The notes under the pieces are model-generated. The model had not been told where the DNA came from and ran no database searches. It saw only the letters and a program-made list of their open reading frames with translations. From Rubellicoccus peritrichatus (GTDB taxonomy: Bacteria; Verrucomicrobiota; Verrucomicrobiia; Opitutales; Cerasicoccaceae), in assembly GCF_033100135.1 (NCBI RefSeq), contig NZ_CP136920.1, forward strand, positions 3,281,001 to 3,345,000: a DNA stretch of 64,000 nucleotides, given 5' to 3'. Numbering within the stretch: the stretch's first letter is position 1; every line of letters starts with the position of its first letter. Positions 4,904 through 52,752 of the stretch are shown here, one piece after another. Both the position numbers and the translations under genes were made by a program.

Positions 4904-7900
4904 TTAAAACTCCACTGGATATTGCAGGATTTTATCAAGCATTGGCTTGATCACTTCCAGTCGCTTTTGAACTTCGCCTTCGTCCTTATTCAAGGCGGCT
5001 TCATGGAGCGCTTTGGCCTCACGTTGCAAATCTTCATCGCCGATGAGTCGGGCACTGCTCAGGGCCGAGTGGGTATACTTGTCGGCTTGTTCCCAGTCAC
5101 CCGAGTTCATGTACTTCCGGCAGTTGTCGAGCTGCTCCTGCAACTCTTTTAAAACGCCTGCCACCATGGACTTGAGTTTGGCCTCATCACCATTTGCGAT
5201 AAAGCGAAGCATTCCGAAGAGGCCCGACATTTTCGGTTCATCGCTGGTAGAAGCATCCAGCATGGCGTCGTCGATCAGGATTCTTGCAAGTGTTCTTTTC
5301 AGCTCGGAGTTGGTAAATGGCTTGGCCACGGTGGCATTGATTCCGATGCGGTCGTAGTTATCCCGGTCCCGCTTCGTCACGTGCGCGCTGATGGCAATAA
5401 TCGGTGTCTCACGCTTCTCGCCCGAGCGGATGACCTCGGCGACTTCGATGCCGGAGATGCCCGGAAGGTTATTGTCGAGCAGCACGACATCGAAGTGCTC
5501 TTCTTCGAATTTTTTCAGACCGATTTCGCCGCTCTCTGCTGAAACCACAGTCAGACCAAGCCGTGCCAATAACTCTTCGGCTACGATCCGGTTATACTCC
5601 TGGTCTTCGACCAGCAGGACATGCTTCCCGTGAAGCGCCGCAATGGTGGCTTCGGTGAGACCGGAAGCGTTGGCAAGGTCTCCCTGAACGATGGGCAGGG
5701 TGACATCAAAGTGAAACGTCGTGCCGCTGCTGTCGGAAGAGCTGAGGCCGATCTTTGCATCCATCATCGTTGCCAGTCGGCTTGAGATACTCAGGCCGAG
5801 TCCCATGCCGGAAGGTCCGCCTTTCTGATCAAAGACACCGCGCTGGAATTTGCCGAAAACCGTTTTCTGCAGCTCTTGGGGAATGCCCGGCCCGGTATCA
5901 ATGACAAGGCAATGCAGATCGGCCTGCGACTCATTGACCTCGACGCAGACCTCCAGCTTGACGCCGCCTTTTTCGGTGAACTTGATCGCATTGCCGATCA
6001 GGTTGGCCAGAATCTGGCGGACCTTGCCGGCGTCACCCAGCAGGGTCAAATTGGTTTCGCCGAGTTTAATGACTTCAAGGGTGAGGCTTTTCTTTTCGGC
6101 CACCGGACGGTAAATCTCCTCGATCGTATCGAGTTCATCACCGAGGTAAAAAGGTGAGGGCTTCAGGCTGACCTTGTTTTCCTCCAAGGCGGAAAAATCA
6201 AGCAGGTCATCCAATAACGATTTCAAATGGCCCGAAGTGGAATCAAGCTGCTTGATTTTCTCACCATACTCTTTGCTGTCATTCAAAGAGTCTTTCAGCA
6301 GGGCAGTCAGGCCGACGACGCCATTCATCGGGTTGCGGATCTCATGGCTGACGCTGGCCAGGAAGTCGTTCTTGGCCGAGTTGGCTTTGGCCAGTTGCAC
6401 GTTGGTTTGCACCAGCTCAATCGTCCGCTCTTCAACCGCTGCTTCCAGAGCCAGGTTTTTCTTCCGCAGGGCAATTGTTCGCCAGCGCATGTAGAGCCAG
6501 CCGATAAACAACAGCAGGACAACATAGACAATGTAGGCGGCTATCGTACGATACCATGGCGGCAAAACCACAAAGGAAAAAGATGCCGGGATGCTTGGGT
6601 TTTCTCCAGATGGATCAATCGAACGGGCTTCAAAGGTGTAGTGGCCTTCTGCTAAATTGGTGAATTCACGAAACGGCGTTGGGCTTGGTTCGCTCCAGTG
6701 GTTTTCCAAACCCATCATCCGCGTCTGATAGAGCTTTTTATCTTCAGTGAAAATCGGTGTGGCAAATTCAAAGTGGGCACGATCAACCGGGAAATTAAAT
6801 ACCGGCTGCGGGCTATTCACATCCATTTGTTCTTCATCCTGGTAGAACGTAGTTTGCGTCATCAAGGTGGCAACCGGCTCCGGCTCAGGGCGTTCTGTTA
6901 GTTCGTGCCGAACAATACCTCCCGATCCGCCAATCCATGCAAGCTCACCTTCGTCTTCAATCAAGAGGCTGTGTATGTCGCCCAATTCATCAATGCCTTC
7001 TGCATTCAGTATTTTGAACTCTGGAGGGTGATTTCCTGATGGCCAGGTTATCTTAGCCATTCTATAAATGCGTTTGCCGTTTTGTTCGATTGGATATGTT
7101 ATCCAAACTTGATCATCAAAGTTTCCGTTATCAAAATTAACTCCAAACGCATTTACACCTAACGAAAGAGGAGAATTTTTTACAGTAGTTAGTTTTGTAT
7201 TGCTTCCTTGAGTGTGAAAAATTCCAGCATCACTTATTATTAATATGCCTGCTGCCATTGGAACTACATAAGACCAAGAGAATGCTTCGTTATTTTCAGG
7301 ATTCAATATGCTATCGAATTTTGATTCTTCTTCAGAATTTATCATTCTACTGATATTACCTGATAAAAGACCTTTTTGTACTGTTCCAAACCAAACTAGA
7401 TTGTCATCCAAATATGCGACAGAGGTTATTCCTCCGAAAAGAGGCCATTCTTTAAAAATTGAAAATTTAGCTCCATCCCAACTGAGAATAGCCAAATCAC
7501 TGTAGATACCAGATAGATACAAGTCAGTCTTTCCAGGAATTTTTTCTAGAAACGTACAAGCTCTATTTGACTCAAATACGATTTCTGAATCTTTGGACTG
7601 AATTTTTTCTATGTTTCTTTCCAAGGAGGCGAACATACCTGCACTGTCTGATGTTAGGTTCCATACGATTTGGTTGTTGTTACCTACGGAATACCAATAA
7701 GGCGATGTGCCTTTGGGGGTCCCGGGTTCAAGCATGTAAATTCCATTATAGGTTCCTGCATAAAGTTTACCGTCTCTGCGTTCCAGATCGAAAATGACTT
7801 CAGCGTTCAAGCCATGCCTTTTATCGAATAGAGTATATGGAGCAGAAAGCTGGACTAGACTAATACCTCTATTCTGTGGAATCCATAAATCTCCAAAACG

Positions 7901-8800
7901 ATCAACGAATACATTCCATGCAGAATCGCCTAGCAGCCCTGTCTCTTCTCCAAAACGATCGATAAATTCCCCGTTGAAATCTAGTAGAAAAACACCATGA
8001 TTATAAGTTCCTGCGGCAATGCTTTGATTGTCAATAAGTGTGCTGTTTGATCCTAAAAAATTGGAAAAACTTTTGCTAAACTCAGTATCAACGGGTTCTA
8101 CCTTTCTTCCGTCGTAATAGAAAAAACCTTTGTCGAATGTACCAATTATCATTCTTTCATCATCAATATTCTCTATGAAATTAATGCCACCATTCGCTAC
8201 CTCTGTATCCGTGAAAAGTAACTTATGTTCAGGGTTTGTTACATCTTTAAGTCCTTCTCCTCGTTGATGAATTAGAAGTCGGTCACCAAGTTGCATGGGG
8301 ACAAGTCTTCCTTCACTTTTCATGAATTCATATGAGATGGCTTCGTTTTGCCAATTGATCAGCCTTTGAGCTGAAACTATTATTATTTTGTCTTTATCTT
8401 CAAAAAGATGCCAAGTTTCACCGAGAGGGTTTTCTTCACTTGTGACTTTTTCTTTTAGTGAAGTAAAAGTATTGGAGTCTATATCAATCCATCCAAAATC
8501 ATGGCTGCCTGCTACCCAGATGCGTCCGTCGCGGGTTGGTTTTACATCACGTGTTAAGCCACTTTCTCCTGTATCGAGTAATGACCAATATTCACCATCA
8601 TAAACTAAGACACCATCGCTATTAGCAAAATACATTAAGCCATCATCACTTTGAGCTGCTGCGGTGTTTTGTGCTCCTGCATTATATTCGTCCGGGGTGA
8701 AAGTTCGGACCGGCGGGGTCCCTTTTTCAAGCGCTATTAGACCGAATGGTGTAAATGTGAGAAGTAACAACGCGTACCAGTGCTTTGGTAGATGAGACAT
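4904..8800 (-). CDS. Hybrid sensor histidine kinase: propeller, Y_Y_Y, HisKA, HATPase, receiver, HPt
   Basis: A one-protein phosphorelay of about 1,298 residues. A signal sequence (MSHLPKHWYALLLLTF) is followed by a large periplasmic two-component-regulator propeller (about 40-620, repeats such as DGRIWVAGSHDFGW and FGDLWIPQNRGIS) and a Y_Y_Y-type domain. A single membrane helix (YIVYVVLLLFIGWLYM) then leads to HisKA with the phospho-His near 819 (SVSHEIRNPMNG), HATPase (NLIGNAIKFTEKGG, DTGPGIP, GMGLGLSIS), a receiver with Asp near 1107 (VVLLDNNLPG), and a terminal HPt-like domain with His near 1244 (KYTHSALSS). Such proteins often sense glycan fragments. In-frame ATGs up to 8887 would only put a non-signal extension in front, so 8800 is preferred. 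No partner DNA-binding regulator is adjacent. The divergent neighbour is the YcaO locus. Confidence 0.9.
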   Translation of the reverse strand: MSHLPKHWYALLLLTFTPFGLIALEKGTPPVRTFTPDEYNAGAQNTAAAQSDDGLMYFANSDGVLVYDGEYWSLLDTGESGLTRDVKPTRDGRIWVAGSHDFGWIDIDSNTFTSLKEKVTSEENPLGETWHLFEDKDKIIIVSAQRLINWQNEAISYEFMKSEGRLVPMQLGDRLLIHQRGEGLKDVTNPEHKLLFTDTEVANGGINFIENIDDERMIIGTFDKGFFYYDGRKVEPVDTEFSKSFSNFLGSNSTLIDNQSIAAGTYNHGVFLLDFNGEFIDRFGEETGLLGDSAWNVFVDRFGDLWIPQNRGISLVQLSAPYTLFDKRHGLNAEVIFDLERRDGKLYAGTYNGIYMLEPGTPKGTSPYWYSVGNNNQIVWNLTSDSAGMFASLERNIEKIQSKDSEIVFESNRACTFLEKIPGKTDLYLSGIYSDLAILSWDGAKFSIFKEWPLFGGITSVAYLDDNLVWFGTVQKGLLSGNISRMINSEEESKFDSILNPENNEAFSWSYVVPMAAGILIISDAGIFHTQGSNTKLTTVKNSPLSLGVNAFGVNFDNGNFDDQVWITYPIEQNGKRIYRMAKITWPSGNHPPEFKILNAEGIDELGDIHSLLIEDEGELAWIGGSGGIVRHELTERPEPEPVATLMTQTTFYQDEEQMDVNSPQPVFNFPVDRAHFEFATPIFTEDKKLYQTRMMGLENHWSEPSPTPFREFTNLAEGHYTFEARSIDPSGENPSIPASFSFVVLPPWYRTIAAYIVYVVLLLFIGWLYMRWRTIALRKKNLALEAAVEERTIELVQTNVQLAKANSAKNDFLASVSHEIRNPMNGVVGLTALLKDSLNDSKEYGEKIKQLDSTSGHLKSLLDDLLDFSALEENKVSLKPSPFYLGDELDTIEEIYRPVAEKKSLTLEVIKLGETNLTLLGDAGKVRQILANLIGNAIKFTEKGGVKLEVCVEVNESQADLHCLVIDTGPGIPQELQKTVFGKFQRGVFDQKGGPSGMGLGLSISSRLATMMDAKIGLSSSDSSGTTFHFDVTLPIVQGDLANASGLTEATIAALHGKHVLLVEDQEYNRIVAEELLARLGLTVVSAESGEIGLKKFEEEHFDVVLLDNNLPGISGIEVAEVIRSGEKRETPIIAISAHVTKRDRDNYDRIGINATVAKPFTNSELKRTLARILIDDAMLDASTSDEPKMSGLFGMLRFIANGDEAKLKSMVAGVLKELQEQLDNCRKYMNSGDWEQADKYTHSALSSARLIGDEDLQREAKALHEAALNKDEGEVQKRLEVIKPMLDKILQYPVEF

Positions 8801-8880
8801 TGTCATACACATTAGAGATCCCTTAATTTTTAGGGTATAGAGTGCTTTCCCTATTGGTTTCGACATTATAGCTTTGAAAC

Positions 8881-8900
8881 GTGGCATGTGCTACGTGACA
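8881..8900. promoter_or_regulatory. Imperfect palindrome, copy A of a shared 20-bp element
   Basis: GTGGCATGTGCTACGTGACA lies in the divergent space between the kinase and the 40-aa peptide gene. Its core (CGTGGCA/TGCTACG) is palindromic with one mismatch. The same element, 17 of 20 bases identical, sits at 52467-52486 upstream of the first autotransporter. A regulator binding site is inferred. Confidence 0.35.
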
Positions 8901-8931
8901 GAAAACCAAAAAAAGACTAAGTAAGACAATC

Positions 8932-9054
8932 ATGAAAAAGATCATTACCTCCCTGGCTCGCACTCTATTCTACAATCTCGGCATTCGTCGTAATCAAGCT
9001 GTAGGTGAAGTGAGTTCCAAGGCATGGCCCTCAGTTGGGACCGAAATTAACTAA
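8932..9054 (+). CDS. 40-residue peptide, candidate RiPP precursor for the adjacent YcaO protein
   Basis: A complete small ORF from ATG 8932 to TAA 9052-9054, immediately upstream of the YcaO gene on the same strand. The first half is basic and amphipathic (MKKIITSLARTLFYNLGIRR), as expected of a leader or membrane-active segment. The second half (residues 21-40) carries Ser28, Ser29, Ser34 and Thr37, Trp32-Pro33 and a C-terminal Asn. There is no cysteine, so any azoline would have to be oxazoline-type; other YcaO chemistries on the backbone are equally possible. The start has no strong Shine-Dalgarno sequence, but neither do several certain genes nearby. Coding status rests on position, a proper start and stop, and the adjacent enzyme. 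Confidence 0.5.
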   Translation: MKKIITSLARTLFYNLGIRRNQAVGEVSSKAWPSVGTEIN

Positions 9055-9126
9055 TTCCAGTCTGCTGAGGTGATCTCCACCATTTTCTCTGTTGAATAAG
9101 ATTGTCGCTCTATTGAATCAAAAAAG

Positions 9127-9162
9127 TCGCCGTCGCAGGACCCAACTCTTCTGCGGCGGCGA
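9127..9162 (+). promoter_or_regulatory. Strong hairpin between peptide and YcaO genes
   Basis: A 12-bp stem, TCGCCGTCGCAG (9127-9138) with CTGCGGCGGCGA (9151-9162), has a single G-U pair and a 12-nt loop. It has no U-tract on the plus strand; an A-run lies upstream. It may be a partial terminator or RNA-processing element that sets the ratio of peptide to enzyme transcript (inference). Confidence 0.5.
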
Positions 9163-9209
9163 TACCACTTTCAAGAACCGTTAAATCTCTAAAAAGCCGT
9201 CATATAACA

Positions 9210-10115
9210 ATGAACCTAGCACCGTTTAAATTTCGTAATGCACTTGCTGAAGATGGTGGCCCGATCAGCCGGATCGAGGAAGGTCACGAGGTGATCTTCG
9301 GGCGCCACCAGTACTGCGCTATGGCTTATTTGCGCGAAGATCTTGTGAGCCGCGGCAATCAGGGAGTCTCTGTCCCTGTCCCGGATGGCGCTGGTAGCGG
9401 GAACGATTTGCAGACCGCCCGCTACCGCGCCATATCGGAGGCGGTTGAGCGCTGGGCTTTGCGTGATTGCCTGCAAAGCCCGGAAGCCCGCAAGGACTAC
9501 GGTTTTGATTATGACCGTTGTTCGAATGGGATGGCAGCTTATCCCGGGCTGTTTAACACGCCGGCCCGTAATGCTGCCATGCGCGAAGCGATTGAACGGC
9601 ATTGCCTGATCCAGTGGTGGGAAGGCAATCTCGGCAGCCATCATATCGCCTGTCCGATTCAGGAATTGAAGGCGATTCGGATCGAAAACCCCTTCAGCAA
9701 GGACGTGGTGGTCCTGCTTTTACAGTTCCGCAAGGAAAGCTACTTCGTCTACGGGTTTGGCATCGGACCGACTGAGGATGATGCCTGCTGGCGGGCCGCG
9801 ATTGAGCTGCACCGGACGGGGGCCATCGTGGACAAGCACTACGAGGATCGAGATTCGATTTCCCACGCCTATATCGAAAGCCATGAGCACCTTTATGAGC
9901 GCCGTTCGCTTTTCTTTTCCCATCCGGACGGCTTCGAACTGGTCTTGAAGCGCATGCGCAAGAATGCGCCCGCCCACCGGCCCAAACCTTTAAAAATGCT
10001 GGTAGACCGAGAGATTGCCGGTCCCTGGAGTCAGTATGCCACGGTTTGGCGTATTGTGCTCGAACAACCATCAATGGACTATCTTGGCCCACGGAGTGAT
10101 GTATTTTTCTGGTAA
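9210..10115 (+). CDS. Stand-alone YcaO-domain protein
   Basis: 301 residues. YcaO proteins use ATP to activate peptide backbone amides, giving azolines, thioamides or amidines; members also have other roles. The family's three signatures are visible: SEAVER (76-81) within GNDLQTARYRAISEAVERWAL, REAIER (125-130) in the second helix, and TEDDACWRAAIEL (188-200) matching the late helix; these supply the acidic Mg-ATP ligands and Arg contacts. It is shorter than typical members (about 380-590). It has no fused E1-like or docking domain and lacks the C-terminal PxPxP of azoline-forming enzymes, ending SDVFFW. No tfuA-like gene, protease or exporter is adjacent. It lies 155 nt after a 40-aa ORF and is followed by a terminator, so the two form a self-contained unit. 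Peptide modification is inferred. Confidence 0.8.
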   Translation: MNLAPFKFRNALAEDGGPISRIEEGHEVIFGRHQYCAMAYLREDLVSRGNQGVSVPVPDGAGSGNDLQTARYRAISEAVERWALRDCLQSPEARKDYGFDYDRCSNGMAAYPGLFNTPARNAAMREAIERHCLIQWWEGNLGSHHIACPIQELKAIRIENPFSKDVVVLLLQFRKESYFVYGFGIGPTEDDACWRAAIELHRTGAIVDKHYEDRDSISHAYIESHEHLYERRSLFFSHPDGFELVLKRMRKNAPAHRPKPLKMLVDREIAGPWSQYATVWRIVLEQPSMDYLGPRSDVFFW

Positions 10116-10239
10116 CACTTTTCCTATCTGTCAACTGGGGTTGTCTAGATGCGATAGGGCGACAATCGGCTGCATTCATCTGCTCAGACCGAATGTTGCC
10201 TTCTACTATAGCTAACTACACATATGGGAATGACGGACC

Positions 10240-10308
10240 GCGACCTTCCATCAGTATAAAAGCGAGTGCGCTTGGGGAGCTGATGGATGGTCGCACCGTT
10301 TATTTTTT
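10240..10308 (+). terminator. Rho-independent terminator of the YcaO unit
   Basis: A 15-bp stem (10240-10254 with 10280-10294, GCGACCTTCCATCAG/CTGATGGATGGTCGC, one mismatch) is followed by a T-rich tract ending TTTATTTTTT (10299-10308). It closes the peptide-YcaO unit, about 125 nt after the stop codon. Confidence 0.75.
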
Positions 10309-10322
10309 GAGAAGCTTTTAGG

Positions 10323-10406
10323 GGTAGGGCGCAGTCTCCAGACAAGCCGAGCGTCACGCAAAGCTATACGTCATGTTGGCGGCTTGTCTGGAGACTGCGC
10401 CCTACC
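10323..10406. repeat. Perfect 27-bp inverted repeat
   Basis: 10323-10349 (GGTAGGGCGCAGTCTCCAGA...) and 10380-10406 are exact reverse complements around a 30-nt loop. It sits between the convergent ends of the YcaO and EVE genes. A related fragment, GGGGCGAAGTCTCCAG, occurs near 52353 after ffh, pointing to a dispersed REP-like family. There is no coding content. Confidence 0.75.
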
Positions 10407-12218: not shown

Positions 12219-13799
12219 ATGTCACAGCACACGAGCAACAAGGCCTCTTTGTTACCTGCTTCCAATTTTGCGTTGCTGCTGGTTTTCTGGGGAACTTTGT
12301 TCCTGCAACTGGCCTATGAGTGGAGCCATAACGATCAATACAGCTATGGCTTGTTCGTTCCTTTTCTGGGGCTCTATTTGTTCTATTTGCGCTGGGAAGA
12401 TCGTCCGATGCCCATTCCTGGAACAAAAAAGGGCATTTCCAGAGGAGTTCTCTGCTTTGTCGGACTGCTGGCGGTGGCGTATTACCCGATAAAAGTCATA
12501 TTTGAGGCGAATGCAGACTGGCGGCTGGTGCTTTGGTCCCAGGCATTGGCCATTTATGCGGTGACCTTGCTTGTACTTTACCGCTGGGGCGGGTTTCGCT
12601 GGGTGGTGCATTTCGGGATGCCTTTTTTCTTTTTTCTTACGGCTATTCCGTGGCCGCGCTGGCTCGAGAACGAGCTGGTTGTTCACCTGATGGAGATTGT
12701 TGCCACCGCCACGGTCGAAGCTGTCAACATGCTGGGTTATTATGCGAAGCAGTCCGGCAATATCATTACATTGAGAAACGGAGTTGTCAGTGTGGAAGAG
12801 GCGTGTAGCGGAGTGCGTTCTTTTCAATCGACCATCATGGGGGCGATTTTTCTTGGTGAACTTTTCCGTTTTGTTGTGGGGTGGCGTTTTATTCTGGTTA
12901 TTGCAGGTGCCGGACTGGCTGTTTTCTTTAATTTCTGTCGCACGCTGACTCTGACCCTTATCAGTGCCGACCATGGGGCGGAGGTTATGAATCGCTGGCA
13001 TGATCCTGCAGGTTACATGGTTTTTATTTCCAGCATGGTTTCACTGGGCTTACTTTGCTGGCTGATTCGCGTAACGCTTTCACCCAGAAAGGTACGTCCT
13101 GAGCTAACGGGTGGCCCTTTTGTGCGCGAGCCGCACTGGCTGCCTTTTTCCAGCATGGCAACTGTCATTGTGCTGGTCGTTCTTTCCGAGCCGTTTACTT
13201 ACGTTTGGTATGCGATTCGTGGACCGGATTCCCAGCATAATCTGTCCTGGGAAATGGATTGGTATGAGGGAACGCAGGACTTGAAATTCGAAGATATCCA
13301 GCCGCGGATCAAAGACATTCTCTTTTTTGACAAAGGCGAGTTGGTTCGCTGGAAAACTCCCAACAACTACCGATGGATTGCTTACTTTTTTGAATGGAAC
13401 TCAGGCAAGGCCGCGCAGTTAGGTGGCGTTCATAATCCGGAGTTATGCCTGCCGGCGGTAGGGTGGGTCATGGACGAACTGGCTGATGATTTGATCTGGG
13501 AAGGCCCGGATGATTTGAAACTGATTTTTAACAGCTATCGTTTCAGCAATCCGAATCAGGAGGTTTATGTGTTTTACTGTCAATGGGACCCGCAGGGGTA
13601 TCCCTATCACACGAAAAGCGGCCGTTTCCGTCTTGATCGATTGCATGACGCCTGGATTGGAGATCGAAAAGCAGGCAAGCAGCAGTTGGAAGTTATCATT
13701 GAAGGCCCGAGATCCATGTCAGCCGCGAAAAAAGCACTGGTTTCCTTCCTCAACGATTCCATTATAGTTGAGACTGAGAGCAAGCCAGGCACGGGGTAG
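12219..13799 (+). CDS. Exosortase fused to an EpsI-type C-terminal domain
   Basis: 526 residues. Exosortases are multispanning membrane transpeptidases that process PEP-CTERM-like surface proteins. The catalytic triad positions are present: Cys196 in EEACSGVRS, Arg241 in FFNFCRTLT and His261 in WHDPAGYMVF. About eight to nine membrane helices occupy residues 15-330. The last 190 residues are soluble and resemble the EpsI/DUF3485 domain (GGVHNPELCLPAVGW, about 405-420), often a separate gene. The start ATG at 12219 gives a normal cytoplasmic N-terminus. No protein in this window ends in an obvious PEP-CTERM tail, so substrates lie elsewhere. A methyltransferase gene follows after 80 bp. Confidence 0.9.
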   Translation: MSQHTSNKASLLPASNFALLLVFWGTLFLQLAYEWSHNDQYSYGLFVPFLGLYLFYLRWEDRPMPIPGTKKGISRGVLCFVGLLAVAYYPIKVIFEANADWRLVLWSQALAIYAVTLLVLYRWGGFRWVVHFGMPFFFFLTAIPWPRWLENELVVHLMEIVATATVEAVNMLGYYAKQSGNIITLRNGVVSVEEACSGVRSFQSTIMGAIFLGELFRFVVGWRFILVIAGAGLAVFFNFCRTLTLTLISADHGAEVMNRWHDPAGYMVFISSMVSLGLLCWLIRVTLSPRKVRPELTGGPFVREPHWLPFSSMATVIVLVVLSEPFTYVWYAIRGPDSQHNLSWEMDWYEGTQDLKFEDIQPRIKDILFFDKGELVRWKTPNNYRWIAYFFEWNSGKAAQLGGVHNPELCLPAVGWVMDELADDLIWEGPDDLKLIFNSYRFSNPNQEVYVFYCQWDPQGYPYHTKSGRFRLDRLHDAWIGDRKAGKQQLEVIIEGPRSMSAAKKALVSFLNDSIIVETESKPGTG

Positions 13800-13879
13800 G
13801 ATAACGGAAGCAGGTGGTCCTGCTTGGCAAGGTTTGAAATGATTCGCTTTGGAGGATCTCGACAGCATATTTAAATGGT

Positions 13880-14929
13880 ATGAGTCATCAGCCTCCTTCT
13901 CATCCTTTTCCACCTGTGGATGACAATCTGCTTTGGGATCTGAATTGCAGCTTCATTCATTTCCCGACGGTGATCGTTGCCGATGAACTCGGACTTTTCG
14001 CGATACTTGATGAGGAAGCGCGGACGCGCGATGCCATTGCGGATAAACTCCAGCTTGGTAGTCGAGCGACCGAGGCGATGCTGGGTGTGTTGACTTCACT
14101 CAAGTTCCTGACTTGTGAAGGCGAACGGTATTACCTCACTCCGGTTTCCAAGAATTACCTTCTGCCAAGCAGTGAATATTACTGGGGAGATGTATTTGCG
14201 ATGAACCGTCAGTTGCTCCTGGGGGCTGAACCACTCAAGCGGGCAATGCTGGAGAATCAGACCAGCCCATATCTTGGTAAAGACAGCGATGAATCACTTA
14301 TTGATGAGTGGGATTCAGGCGAGGTCGATGAGGATACCGCGCGCGGTTTCACCAAGTGCATGCATGCGCTTTTCTGGGGGCATGCTCAGGCGCTGGCCGC
14401 TATGATCGACATTGGCCCGGTTACTCGCCTGCTGGACGTTGGCGGTGGATCAGGTTGTTTTTCAATCGCACTATCTCGCAAAAATCCTGACCTGAAATGT
14501 ACTATCATGGATCTCAAACCAGTCTGCTTGGTCACGCAGGAATTCATTAAAAAACTGAATGCTGCAGACCAGGTAGATGCTCAGGCAGGTAACATGTTTT
14601 CTCCAGATTGGCCAAGTGGCTATGATGGCGTATTCTTCAGTAATATTTTTCATGACTGGTGGGAGGAGCGTTGTCGTCTGGTCGCGCGCAACAGTTTCGA
14701 AGCCCTGCCTTCAGGAGGGCGTATTTTTCTTTTCGAAATGCTGCTCGATGATACTCGGAACGGGCCTCTAACCTGTGCCGGATTCTCCATGTTCATGGTC
14801 TATTACATGCGTGGAAAACAGTATAGTGCCTGCGAATTGCGTAGCTTTTTGGAAGATGCTGGTTTCGTTGATTTTGAGGTCCGTACCATTTTCGGCTATT
14901 TTTCTCTGGTTTCTGCACGCAAGCCCTAA
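13880..14929 (+). CDS. SAM-dependent O-methyltransferase (plant COMT/HIOMT-like family 2)
   Basis: 349 residues. An N-terminal winged-helix dimerisation domain (about 1-120: FHFPTVIVADELGLFAIL, ATEAMLGVLTSLKFL) precedes the Rossmann methyltransferase domain. SAM-binding motif I is RLLDVGGGSGCFSIAL (about 177-192), with the acidic loop near CTIMDLK. The catalytic-base His region is SNIFHDWWEERC, followed by LPSGGRIFLFEMLLDD. The architecture matches small-molecule O-methyltransferases that act on phenols or polyketides. It lies on the same strand as the exosortase gene, but the 80-bp gap does not prove co-transcription. The substrate is unknown. Confidence 0.88.
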   Translation: MSHQPPSHPFPPVDDNLLWDLNCSFIHFPTVIVADELGLFAILDEEARTRDAIADKLQLGSRATEAMLGVLTSLKFLTCEGERYYLTPVSKNYLLPSSEYYWGDVFAMNRQLLLGAEPLKRAMLENQTSPYLGKDSDESLIDEWDSGEVDEDTARGFTKCMHALFWGHAQALAAMIDIGPVTRLLDVGGGSGCFSIALSRKNPDLKCTIMDLKPVCLVTQEFIKKLNAADQVDAQAGNMFSPDWPSGYDGVFFSNIFHDWWEERCRLVARNSFEALPSGGRIFLFEMLLDDTRNGPLTCAGFSMFMVYYMRGKQYSACELRSFLEDAGFVDFEVRTIFGYFSLVSARKP

Positions 14930-52285: not shown

Positions 52286-52752
52286 GTATGTTTTGTACGT
52301 TTGTTTTTGCAACGAGGAATTTCACATCGTAAAGCAAAGCTTGATGAAGATGGGGCGAAGTCTCCAGGCCAGTTGAGGATTATATGATTCAGTTAAGGTC
52401 ATAGGCTCTAGCAGTAAGCAACAAGGAGCATATGCGCTCTTATGTGCCTCAAGTGACATCGACCATGTGGCATATGCCACGTCACATGCTGCTTATGCCA
52501 TTGCAGATGACGCATAGGGCGTCCACATGTTTTGAATGAATCCACCTGAGGTGTGCTTTGTTGAAGCTACGATTGTAGAAAACAGCTTCATTCTTCAGGT
52601 GTCAAATTGCCTTGCGTAATGTGATACTGTTAGGTAATATGAATGTTAAATAGTTTAAGATTAATATTACCTTGATAAGCTTAATATTACATTAAGATCA
52701 TACCCCTACATAGCGTTTAAAAACGCGGAATCTAAGCTGAAAAGGATTATAG
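52286..52752. other. Intergenic region upstream of the first autotransporter
   Basis: 467 bp. It contains a fragment GGGGCGAAGTCTCCAG (near 52353) related to the inverted repeat at 10323-10406, then a palindromic cluster around 52464-52488. An AT-rich tract follows (52630-52700) with two TTAATATTAC copies about 20 bp apart. A Shine-Dalgarno-like AAAGGA at 52741-52746 sits 6 nt before the ATG. No ORF. Confidence 0.5.
52467..52486. promoter_or_regulatory. Palindrome, copy B of the shared 20-bp element
   Basis: The core GTGGCATATGCCAC (52467-52480) is a perfect 14-bp palindrome, flanked by CATG/CACATG that extends the symmetry. Over 20 bp it matches 8881-8900 at 17 positions. It lies about 270 bp upstream of the autotransporter start. 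Confidence 0.4.

Follow-up and report, generated by a model that had tools for sequence, protein, structure and literature searches.

In Rubellicoccus peritrichatus (Verrucomicrobiota, Opitutales), whose genome is a single contig of 5.8 Mb, a stretch of 64,000 nucleotides (NZ_CP136920.1, positions 3,281,001 to 3,345,000; hereafter the window, whose numbering is used throughout) carries a gene for a 40-residue peptide, followed on the same strand by a gene for a stand-alone YcaO enzyme and preceded, on the opposite strand, by a gene for a large hybrid histidine kinase. We found that precursor, YcaO enzyme and kinase are conserved as a unit: 73 of 80 related loci carry an opposite-strand kinase homologue on the upstream side of the precursor, and the count is 73 of 75 when only loci with more than 1 kb of upstream DNA are considered. 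Because the kinase is nearly always beside the peptide and YcaO genes, the arrangement points to a peptide-signalling or peptide-sensing cassette and not to a lone pair of genes. In our judgement the evidence stands about evenly balanced for the proposal that the window locus is the peptide-and-maturase half of a three-part signalling cassette built on a ribosomally synthesized and post-translationally modified peptide (RiPP), which would be modified by YcaO, exported, sensed by the kinase and autoregulated. More tentatively, and with somewhat less confidence than in the cassette itself, we propose that Verrucomicrobiota use the YcaO-modified peptide as a peptide signal or autoinducer, which a hybrid kinase of the glycan-sensor type would read in one or two separate circuits per genome.

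The peptide open reading frame (ORF; 8932..9054, + strand; MKKIITSLARTLFYNLGIRRNQAVGEVSSKAWPSVGTEIN) and the 301-codon ycaO (9210..10115, + strand) are separated by 155 nt, confirming the gene order given in a preliminary description of this DNA. A matching ORF precedes ycaO in four relatives of the genus Cerasicoccus (L022, L023, L024 and G290/L018; MKKLFRTVLFTVKYNCGVRSKPSMPTLETKAPPTYPTEV, MKKAIVSILQTVIYNAGIRVGHTSEKIVAKAPPTWPCEV, MKKAIVSILRTVVYNVGFRSSPSGEKIQTKAYPTFPTEV and MKKAIVSIISTITYNVGLRSQSSMDKMQTKAWPSYPCEV). Compared with these four, the window ORF is 64–69% identical at second codon positions versus 33–41% at third positions, and its BLOSUM score is 65–92 in its own frame versus at most 23 in shifted frames. 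Since second codon positions are kept far above third positions and the own frame outscores the shifted ones, the 40-codon ORF is, on this pattern of conservation, a real coding gene, and a chance ORF was rejected on the same codon-position conservation. The candidate core, KAWPSVGTEIN (9019..9051, + strand), aligns with KAPPTYPTEV, KAPPTWPCEV, KAYPTFPTEV and KAWPSYPCEV of the Cerasicoccus relatives, which places a putative border between leader and core.

Sequence and modelled fold assign the 301-residue protein to the YcaO superfamily. A genome-wide search of the window genome with Pfam YcaO (PF02624) scored three candidates, presumably without this ORF among them, and returned no match; a direct scan of the protein nevertheless passes the cut-off (E 9e-10, 38.8 bits versus 25.7). 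The AlphaFold2 model (mean predicted local distance difference test, pLDDT, 91.1) matched solved YcaO enzymes with Z scores of 16.1 (6cib), 16.0 (6gri chain D, a microcin synthetase) and 15.4 (4v1t, a heterocyclase), and by sequence a profile of 18 relatives matched no PDB chain. In the alignment of these 18 relatives E77, E80, E129 and E199 are invariant and R81 is nearly so, which makes them candidates for the ATP/Mg-binding residues. The SagD-family model TIGR03604 gave 18.6 bits, far under its cut-off of 219.25, and the protein is therefore not a SagD by this measure. Neither E1-like proteins nor TfuA or MNIO were seen by eye in the recurring neighbour clusters, which were not the object of a profile search aimed at these families, and Pfam scans of the kinase and six other window proteins revealed no E1-like protein, TfuA, protease or exporter. 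The YcaO enzyme appears to work with the substrate peptide alone.

A genome scan with an 18-row YcaO alignment retrieved 102 relatives, the best 80 of which make up the locus set, while an earlier scan of the same kind with the single YcaO protein had retrieved none. YcaO relatives occur in 41 of 372 genomes of the window's order, one of them (G544) being merely a 26-residue match (E 2.5e-4). A phylum-wide sample of 387 genomes gave 14 with such a relative, every one again within that order; no relative outside it was convincing. Another scan gave a YcaO match in 14 of 288 genomes, three of which were same-class fragments (E 6e-4 to 7.5e-4) with internal stops and were discarded. A phage or mobile context was likewise rejected, no relatives being confirmed in viral contigs with either the single protein or the 18-row alignment. 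Three of the 80 loci (L047, L097, L098) have at most 135 bp of upstream DNA; among the other 77, a precursor ORF lies 5' of ycaO in 76, 72 of them identified by a leader hidden Markov model (HMM) and four by eye (L022, L023, L024, L090). This model, iterated from eight seeds and run on every six-frame ORF of the 80 loci, matched in 71 loci no more than 700 bp ahead of ycaO and in L030 slightly farther ahead. Just two matches fell elsewhere: one had E 0.16, and the other is a second precursor, in L035. Thus, a small precursor gene with a conserved leader and a variable part beside a modifying enzyme, our criterion for a RiPP locus, was found in 76 of the 77 loci, and the peptide–YcaO pair is, as read from sequence, a RiPP-type locus with a predicted product. 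The same class had been proposed in the preliminary description, and the conserved small ORF upstream of orthologous ycaO genes bears it out.

Alignment of 75 of the 80 precursors (those of 45 residues or more, without the window peptide, L022–L024 and L058) revealed two conserved parts joined by a hardly conserved spacer: a leader with G20 (96%), A25 (96%) and D29 (93%), and a core with C51 (90%), P54 (80%) and C55 (88%), percentages referring to the residues aligned at each position. The C-terminal family core is C-x-x-P-C, in its strict form in 25 of the 80 precursors, and residues past position 28 are richer than those before it in Pro (11.1% versus 0.7%) and Cys (5.5% versus 0.8%). Several precursors (L083, L099, L052) have repeated cores, as in some RiPP precursors. 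In the window's clade, T/S and T/C occupy the positions of the two core Cys, and the window peptide and six other precursors of the 80 contain no Cys after residue 28. Because Cys, Ser and Thr exchange at fixed core positions, which a cyclodehydratase could tolerate, azoline formation is most likely the chemistry of this YcaO, as far as core sequences can indicate. The preliminary description had reasoned from the missing Cys that chemistry other than thiazoline formation was implied. For the window peptide this is right in that thiazoline is excluded, but it does not lead away from azolines, given that oxazoline and methyloxazoline could still form and that the family core is C-x-x-P-C. Leaders resemble signal peptides in 56 of the 80 precursors by a permissive rule and in 26 by a strict one (A-x-A with a hydrophobic stretch), in a rule-based scoring for which the script mis-chose the start codons of L045 and L058 in the strict tally. 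The leader of the window's clade is shorter and less hydrophobic than that of most relatives. Five precursors searched against Pfam and NCBIfam had no credible model; matches below cut-off, to a proline-rich stretch and to DUF2789, were disregarded.

The divergent gene (4904..8800, − strand) encodes a hybrid histidine kinase of ~1300 residues that comprises a periplasmic sensor (double propeller plus Y_Y_Y), HisKA, HATPase and REC domains and a C-terminal Hpt-like segment with E 0.0054, under the Pfam cut-off; a DNA-binding domain was not found at the C-terminus by Pfam at E up to 0.1. The frame is open to 8887, and we chose the start at 8800 because MSHLPKHWYALLLL gives a hydrophobic N-terminus; with that start, the kinase gene begins 131 bp before the peptide gene, a neighbour absent from the preliminary description. 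The model of the sensor (pLDDT 88.3) aligns with the BT4663 periplasmic domain (4a2l) with Z 32.1 over 665 residues, and by Pfam and predicted structure the protein combines the periplasmic double propeller and Y_Y_Y with the kinase and receiver expected of a Bacteroides-type hybrid two-component system (HTCS). In the locus count we accepted any opposite-strand kinase match that ended left of ycaO or inside its first 300 bp, and the edge of the kinase model lies at a median of 156 bp from the peptide start (range 55–745, the largest in L029; n = 72 loci). After the kinase, the next most frequent neighbour family is found in 41 of the 80 loci and the following ones in at most 17 (clusters read by eye). 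Moreover, matches to the kinase sensor and to YcaO co-occur in the same 9 of 36 related genomes, the window's included, and both are absent from the same 27, a co-occurrence among related genomes for which a simple p-value is inappropriate. Compared with eight relatives, the window kinase is 20–30% identical in the sensor and 34–44% identical in the kinase domain. Two assemblies contain two complete loci each, with kinases 26% identical in one, where precursors and dyads clearly differ, and 43% identical in the other, where the precursors are similar; complete yet differing loci within one assembly would suit separate circuits.

Kinase homologues also occur away from ycaO. Fourteen ORFs of more than 1000 residues in G296 (L202–L211, L216) match the window kinase. 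In a kinase tree, which holds one mis-picked ORF (L088, whose genuine kinase was seen in the locus count), 15 of 16 unlinked homologues form one clade (support 0.998) without any ycaO-linked kinase. One unlinked kinase, L206:9381-13382, clusters with the ycaO-linked kinases and is possibly the remnant of a lost cassette. The idea that one YcaO serves several kinase–peptide pairs found no support: the leader HMM finds no precursor in 13 regions with unlinked kinases (the flank beside one L206 kinase lying nearly outside its region).

Kinase and peptide genes share a divergent promoter region (8801..8931). We identified the exact dyad TACC-N8-GGTA in 21 of the 75 divergent promoters, always within 130 bp of the peptide start; of the control segments, one among 73 downstream ones and none among 75 coding ones had it. 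It is mostly located at −63 to −65 or −86 to −87 from the peptide start and is present in three copies in L062 and in two in L032, spaced 22 bp in both. Its inner bases vary by locus on both sides, some loci having GGAATTCC and others TTTTAAAA, and the symmetry is kept; with symmetry preserved while the inner letters change, the dyad behaves like a regulator site. In the window, the region contains an imperfect dyad, ACGTGGCATGTGCTACGT (8879..8896), which is a possible, weak site of this kind. In 11 genomes chosen for carrying the dyad in its first form, 1–11 sites per genome (the peptide promoter included) were found at up to two mismatches, compared to 0–1 for the reversed pattern. For the window genome, a pattern built from its own two sites gave 4 + 8 matches on the two strands at up to two mismatches versus 3 + 3 for the control, which leaves only those two sites of interest. 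Of the sites examined in the 11 genomes, many lie 40–140 bp before an ORF and many others lie elsewhere; those outside the peptide promoter may be operators or scattered repeats.

Dyad-like palindromes were also seen before TonB-plug-like proteins in L180 (by Pfam) and L184 (by eye) and before proteins that read as receiver domains in L181, L190 and, at a distance of 1172 bp, L172; dyads before proteins of these two kinds hint at a possible small regulon. A second dyad-like site in the window, ATGTGGCATATGCCACGT (52465–52482), shares 15 of 18 bases with the dyad of the peptide promoter (chance expectation in the window, 0.03) and sits ~270 bp before a 1676-residue ORF without a Pfam match.

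The family found in 41 of the 80 loci is a response regulator, encoded tail-to-tail with the kinase in 37 and downstream of ycaO in four; the one member scanned with Pfam has a receiver and a LuxR-type domain. With a divergent kinase in 73 of 75 loci, this regulator in 41 of 80 and a promoter dyad in 21 of 75, the words 'minimal' and 'self-contained' that had earlier been applied to the locus are not supported.

These data are consistent with the following scheme, in which we infer the chemistry, the export, the role of the peptide as kinase ligand and the binding of the regulator to the dyad. The stand-alone YcaO would modify the 40-residue precursor in the cytoplasm, most likely turning the two conserved Cys/Ser/Thr residues of the core into azolines by ATP-dependent cyclodehydration. 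The hydrophobic leader, signal-peptide-like in most relatives and degenerate in the window's clade, would carry the product over the inner membrane and would be removed there. Once in the periplasm, the matured peptide may be detected by the divergent hybrid histidine kinase with its double propeller. The REC and Hpt-like domains of the kinase would relay phosphate to a response regulator of the LuxR type, encoded beside the kinase in many relatives and apparently unlinked in the window genome. This regulator would target the divergent promoter common to the kinase and peptide genes, and perhaps a few others, so that the peptide would control its own production.

Several observations weigh against such a signalling cassette. 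The putative link between peptide and kinase is drawn from gene association and promoter dyads, and the sensor has a fold used for glycans in Bacteroides; its ligand may thus be a different cue. The cassette is also incomplete in places: in L026 and L030 the kinase is missing beside precursor and ycaO, in L096 no precursor is visible beside kinase and ycaO, and the leader-HMM matches in L027, L029 and L058, which are among the counted loci, are weak (E 0.06–0.4), all 72 such matches having been counted with a model iterated on the same loci. As regards export, neither an exporter nor a dedicated protease recurs beside the loci (judged by eye on ORFs of at least 90 residues, with no profile search); neither the window peptide nor those of its Cerasicoccus relatives have a canonical signal peptide (hydrophobicity over 12 residues, 0.81–1.57), and the strict A-x-A is missing in the window peptide, L022 and L024. 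In G119 and G296 an unlinked kinase resembles the window's sensor more than the ycaO-linked one does, and G296 alone supplies 13 of the 16 unlinked members of the tree, which makes their separate clade weaker evidence. The best response-regulator homologue of the window genome, 53% identical, is encoded ~0.44 Mb away, and the exact dyad is missing from 54 of the 75 promoters, among them that of the window, whose dyad (7 of 9 pairs) is not significant alone. Lastly, L026 has TonB and iron-type uptake genes in its upstream part, and a TonB-plug protein follows the dyad of L180; both would suit a metal-binding product. We also observed that the regulator homologue of the window genome adjoins a gene that reads, by eye, as a TonB receptor.

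The alternative that best survives, which we hold to be unlikely but worth keeping in view, is that kinase and regulator sense an environmental cue, a glycan for example, and switch on a secreted RiPP acting as antibiotic or effector, so that the peptide is output and not input. The nearly full-length likeness of the sensor to BT4663, whose structure is titled as a heparin and heparan sulphate sensor, fits this, as do the promoter dyad, which suggests a regulated peptide operon, and the 1–11 dyad sites versus 0–1 for the reversed pattern in the 11 dyad-selected genomes. Nonetheless, the partner common to the kinase loci is the peptide–ycaO pair itself, whereas families resembling immunity, export or glycan-use proteins recur, as read by eye, in no more than a minority of the loci.

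More doubtful still is that the product is a metal-binding RiPP, a metallophore or metal buffer based on the C-x-x-P-C core and taken up through TonB receptors, with the kinase monitoring its loaded or free form. In L026, a long locus without a kinase, the same-strand genes upstream include, by Pfam, those for a TonB receptor, a FecCD permease and a periplasmic binding protein, a dyad precedes the TonB-plug protein of L180 (Pfam) and the similar protein of L184 (by eye), and the TonB-receptor-like gene beside the window genome's regulator homologue (by eye) points the same way. Copper-chelating RiPPs that are Sec-exported and contain Cys, the bufferins, are moreover described (PMC12452194). 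However, no TonB- or metal-uptake-like family was seen by eye to recur near the other loci, and a metal-binding core fits poorly with the seven of 80 precursors, the window's among them, that have no Cys after residue 28, or with a strict C-x-x-P-C in just 25 of the 80. The uptake genes upstream of precursor and ycaO in L026 (L026:2990-7700) include, by eye, an ATPase-like frame.

That the locus is a self-contained two-gene RiPP system with the kinase as a bystander seems very improbable: the pair is tight and ends in a terminator-like hairpin in the window, and the kinase is missing in L026 and L030, but it is in place at 73 of 75 loci, and of 36 genomes the 9 with a sensor match are also the 9 with a YcaO match. 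Scarcely credible is a chance ORF or regulatory leader, with YcaO modifying another protein, which the mere 40 codons and the 155-nt spacer to ycaO might suggest and which in-frame conservation, separately conserved leader and core, and repeated cores contradict.

As a signalling cassette, the locus would share features with several known systems. YcaO-dependent RiPPs include linear azol(in)e peptides, thioamitides and amidine peptides, bottromycin being one of the last. They have in common with the present family the YcaO fold, an adjoining small precursor gene and a core with conserved Cys/Ser/Thr; here, in contrast, no E1-like protein, dehydrogenase, TfuA, protease or exporter was seen by eye as a recurring neighbour, the leader is signal-peptide-like, a kinase is a near-constant partner and the SagD score is far under cut-off. 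The product of ItfB is another amidine peptide of the YcaO-dependent RiPP class (PMC10352776). Sec signal peptides combined with Cys-containing cores are known from the MNIO-modified bufferins and oxazolins and are called rare among bacterial RiPPs (PMC12452194); the present family differs in having YcaO in place of MNIO and a hybrid kinase as partner.

The kinase is like the Bacteroides HTCS of the BT4663 type in its sensor fold and in the order of Y_Y_Y, HisKA, HATPase and REC. The C-terminal DNA-binding domain of Bacteroides-type HTCS is of the AraC type; the window kinase has no such C-terminal domain by Pfam, carries a weak Hpt instead and is associated with a RiPP precursor. Histidine kinases also serve peptide pheromone systems such as Agr and lantibiotic autoinduction. 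By analogy, these systems resemble the present loci in uniting peptide, maturation enzyme, kinase and often a regulator, whereas here the maturase would be YcaO and the sensor a periplasmic propeller, with peptide sensing put forward as a proposal.

Open-access literature searches, a scope that leaves aside subscription papers and preprints, returned no description of a precursor–YcaO–kinase arrangement, and none of a peptide-signalling system in Verrucomicrobiota. The locus would thus provide a RiPP family without a Pfam or NCBIfam precursor model (five precursors searched), a YcaO that appears to need its substrate alone, and, for this phylum, a candidate system of peptide signalling. A ribosomal peptide would be added to the glycans for which the propeller/Y_Y_Y sensor is known and, if the proposal is true, Gram-negative bacteria would have a new class of signalling by peptides. 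With candidates named for precursor, enzyme, receptor, regulator and operator, the scheme is directly testable.

Downstream of ycaO, a terminator-like hairpin with a U-rich tail spans 10235..10308 (+ strand). A simple terminator scanner did not list it; folding of 10235–10297, which is followed by TTTATTTTTT, gave −34.8 kcal/mol (z −4.05) and so supports the terminator placed here in the preliminary description. Just past it lies a perfect inverted repeat (10323–10406) with arms of 27 nt and 30 nt between them, and near the locus Pfam identifies an exosortase gene of the EpsH family followed by an O-methyltransferase gene (12219–14929).

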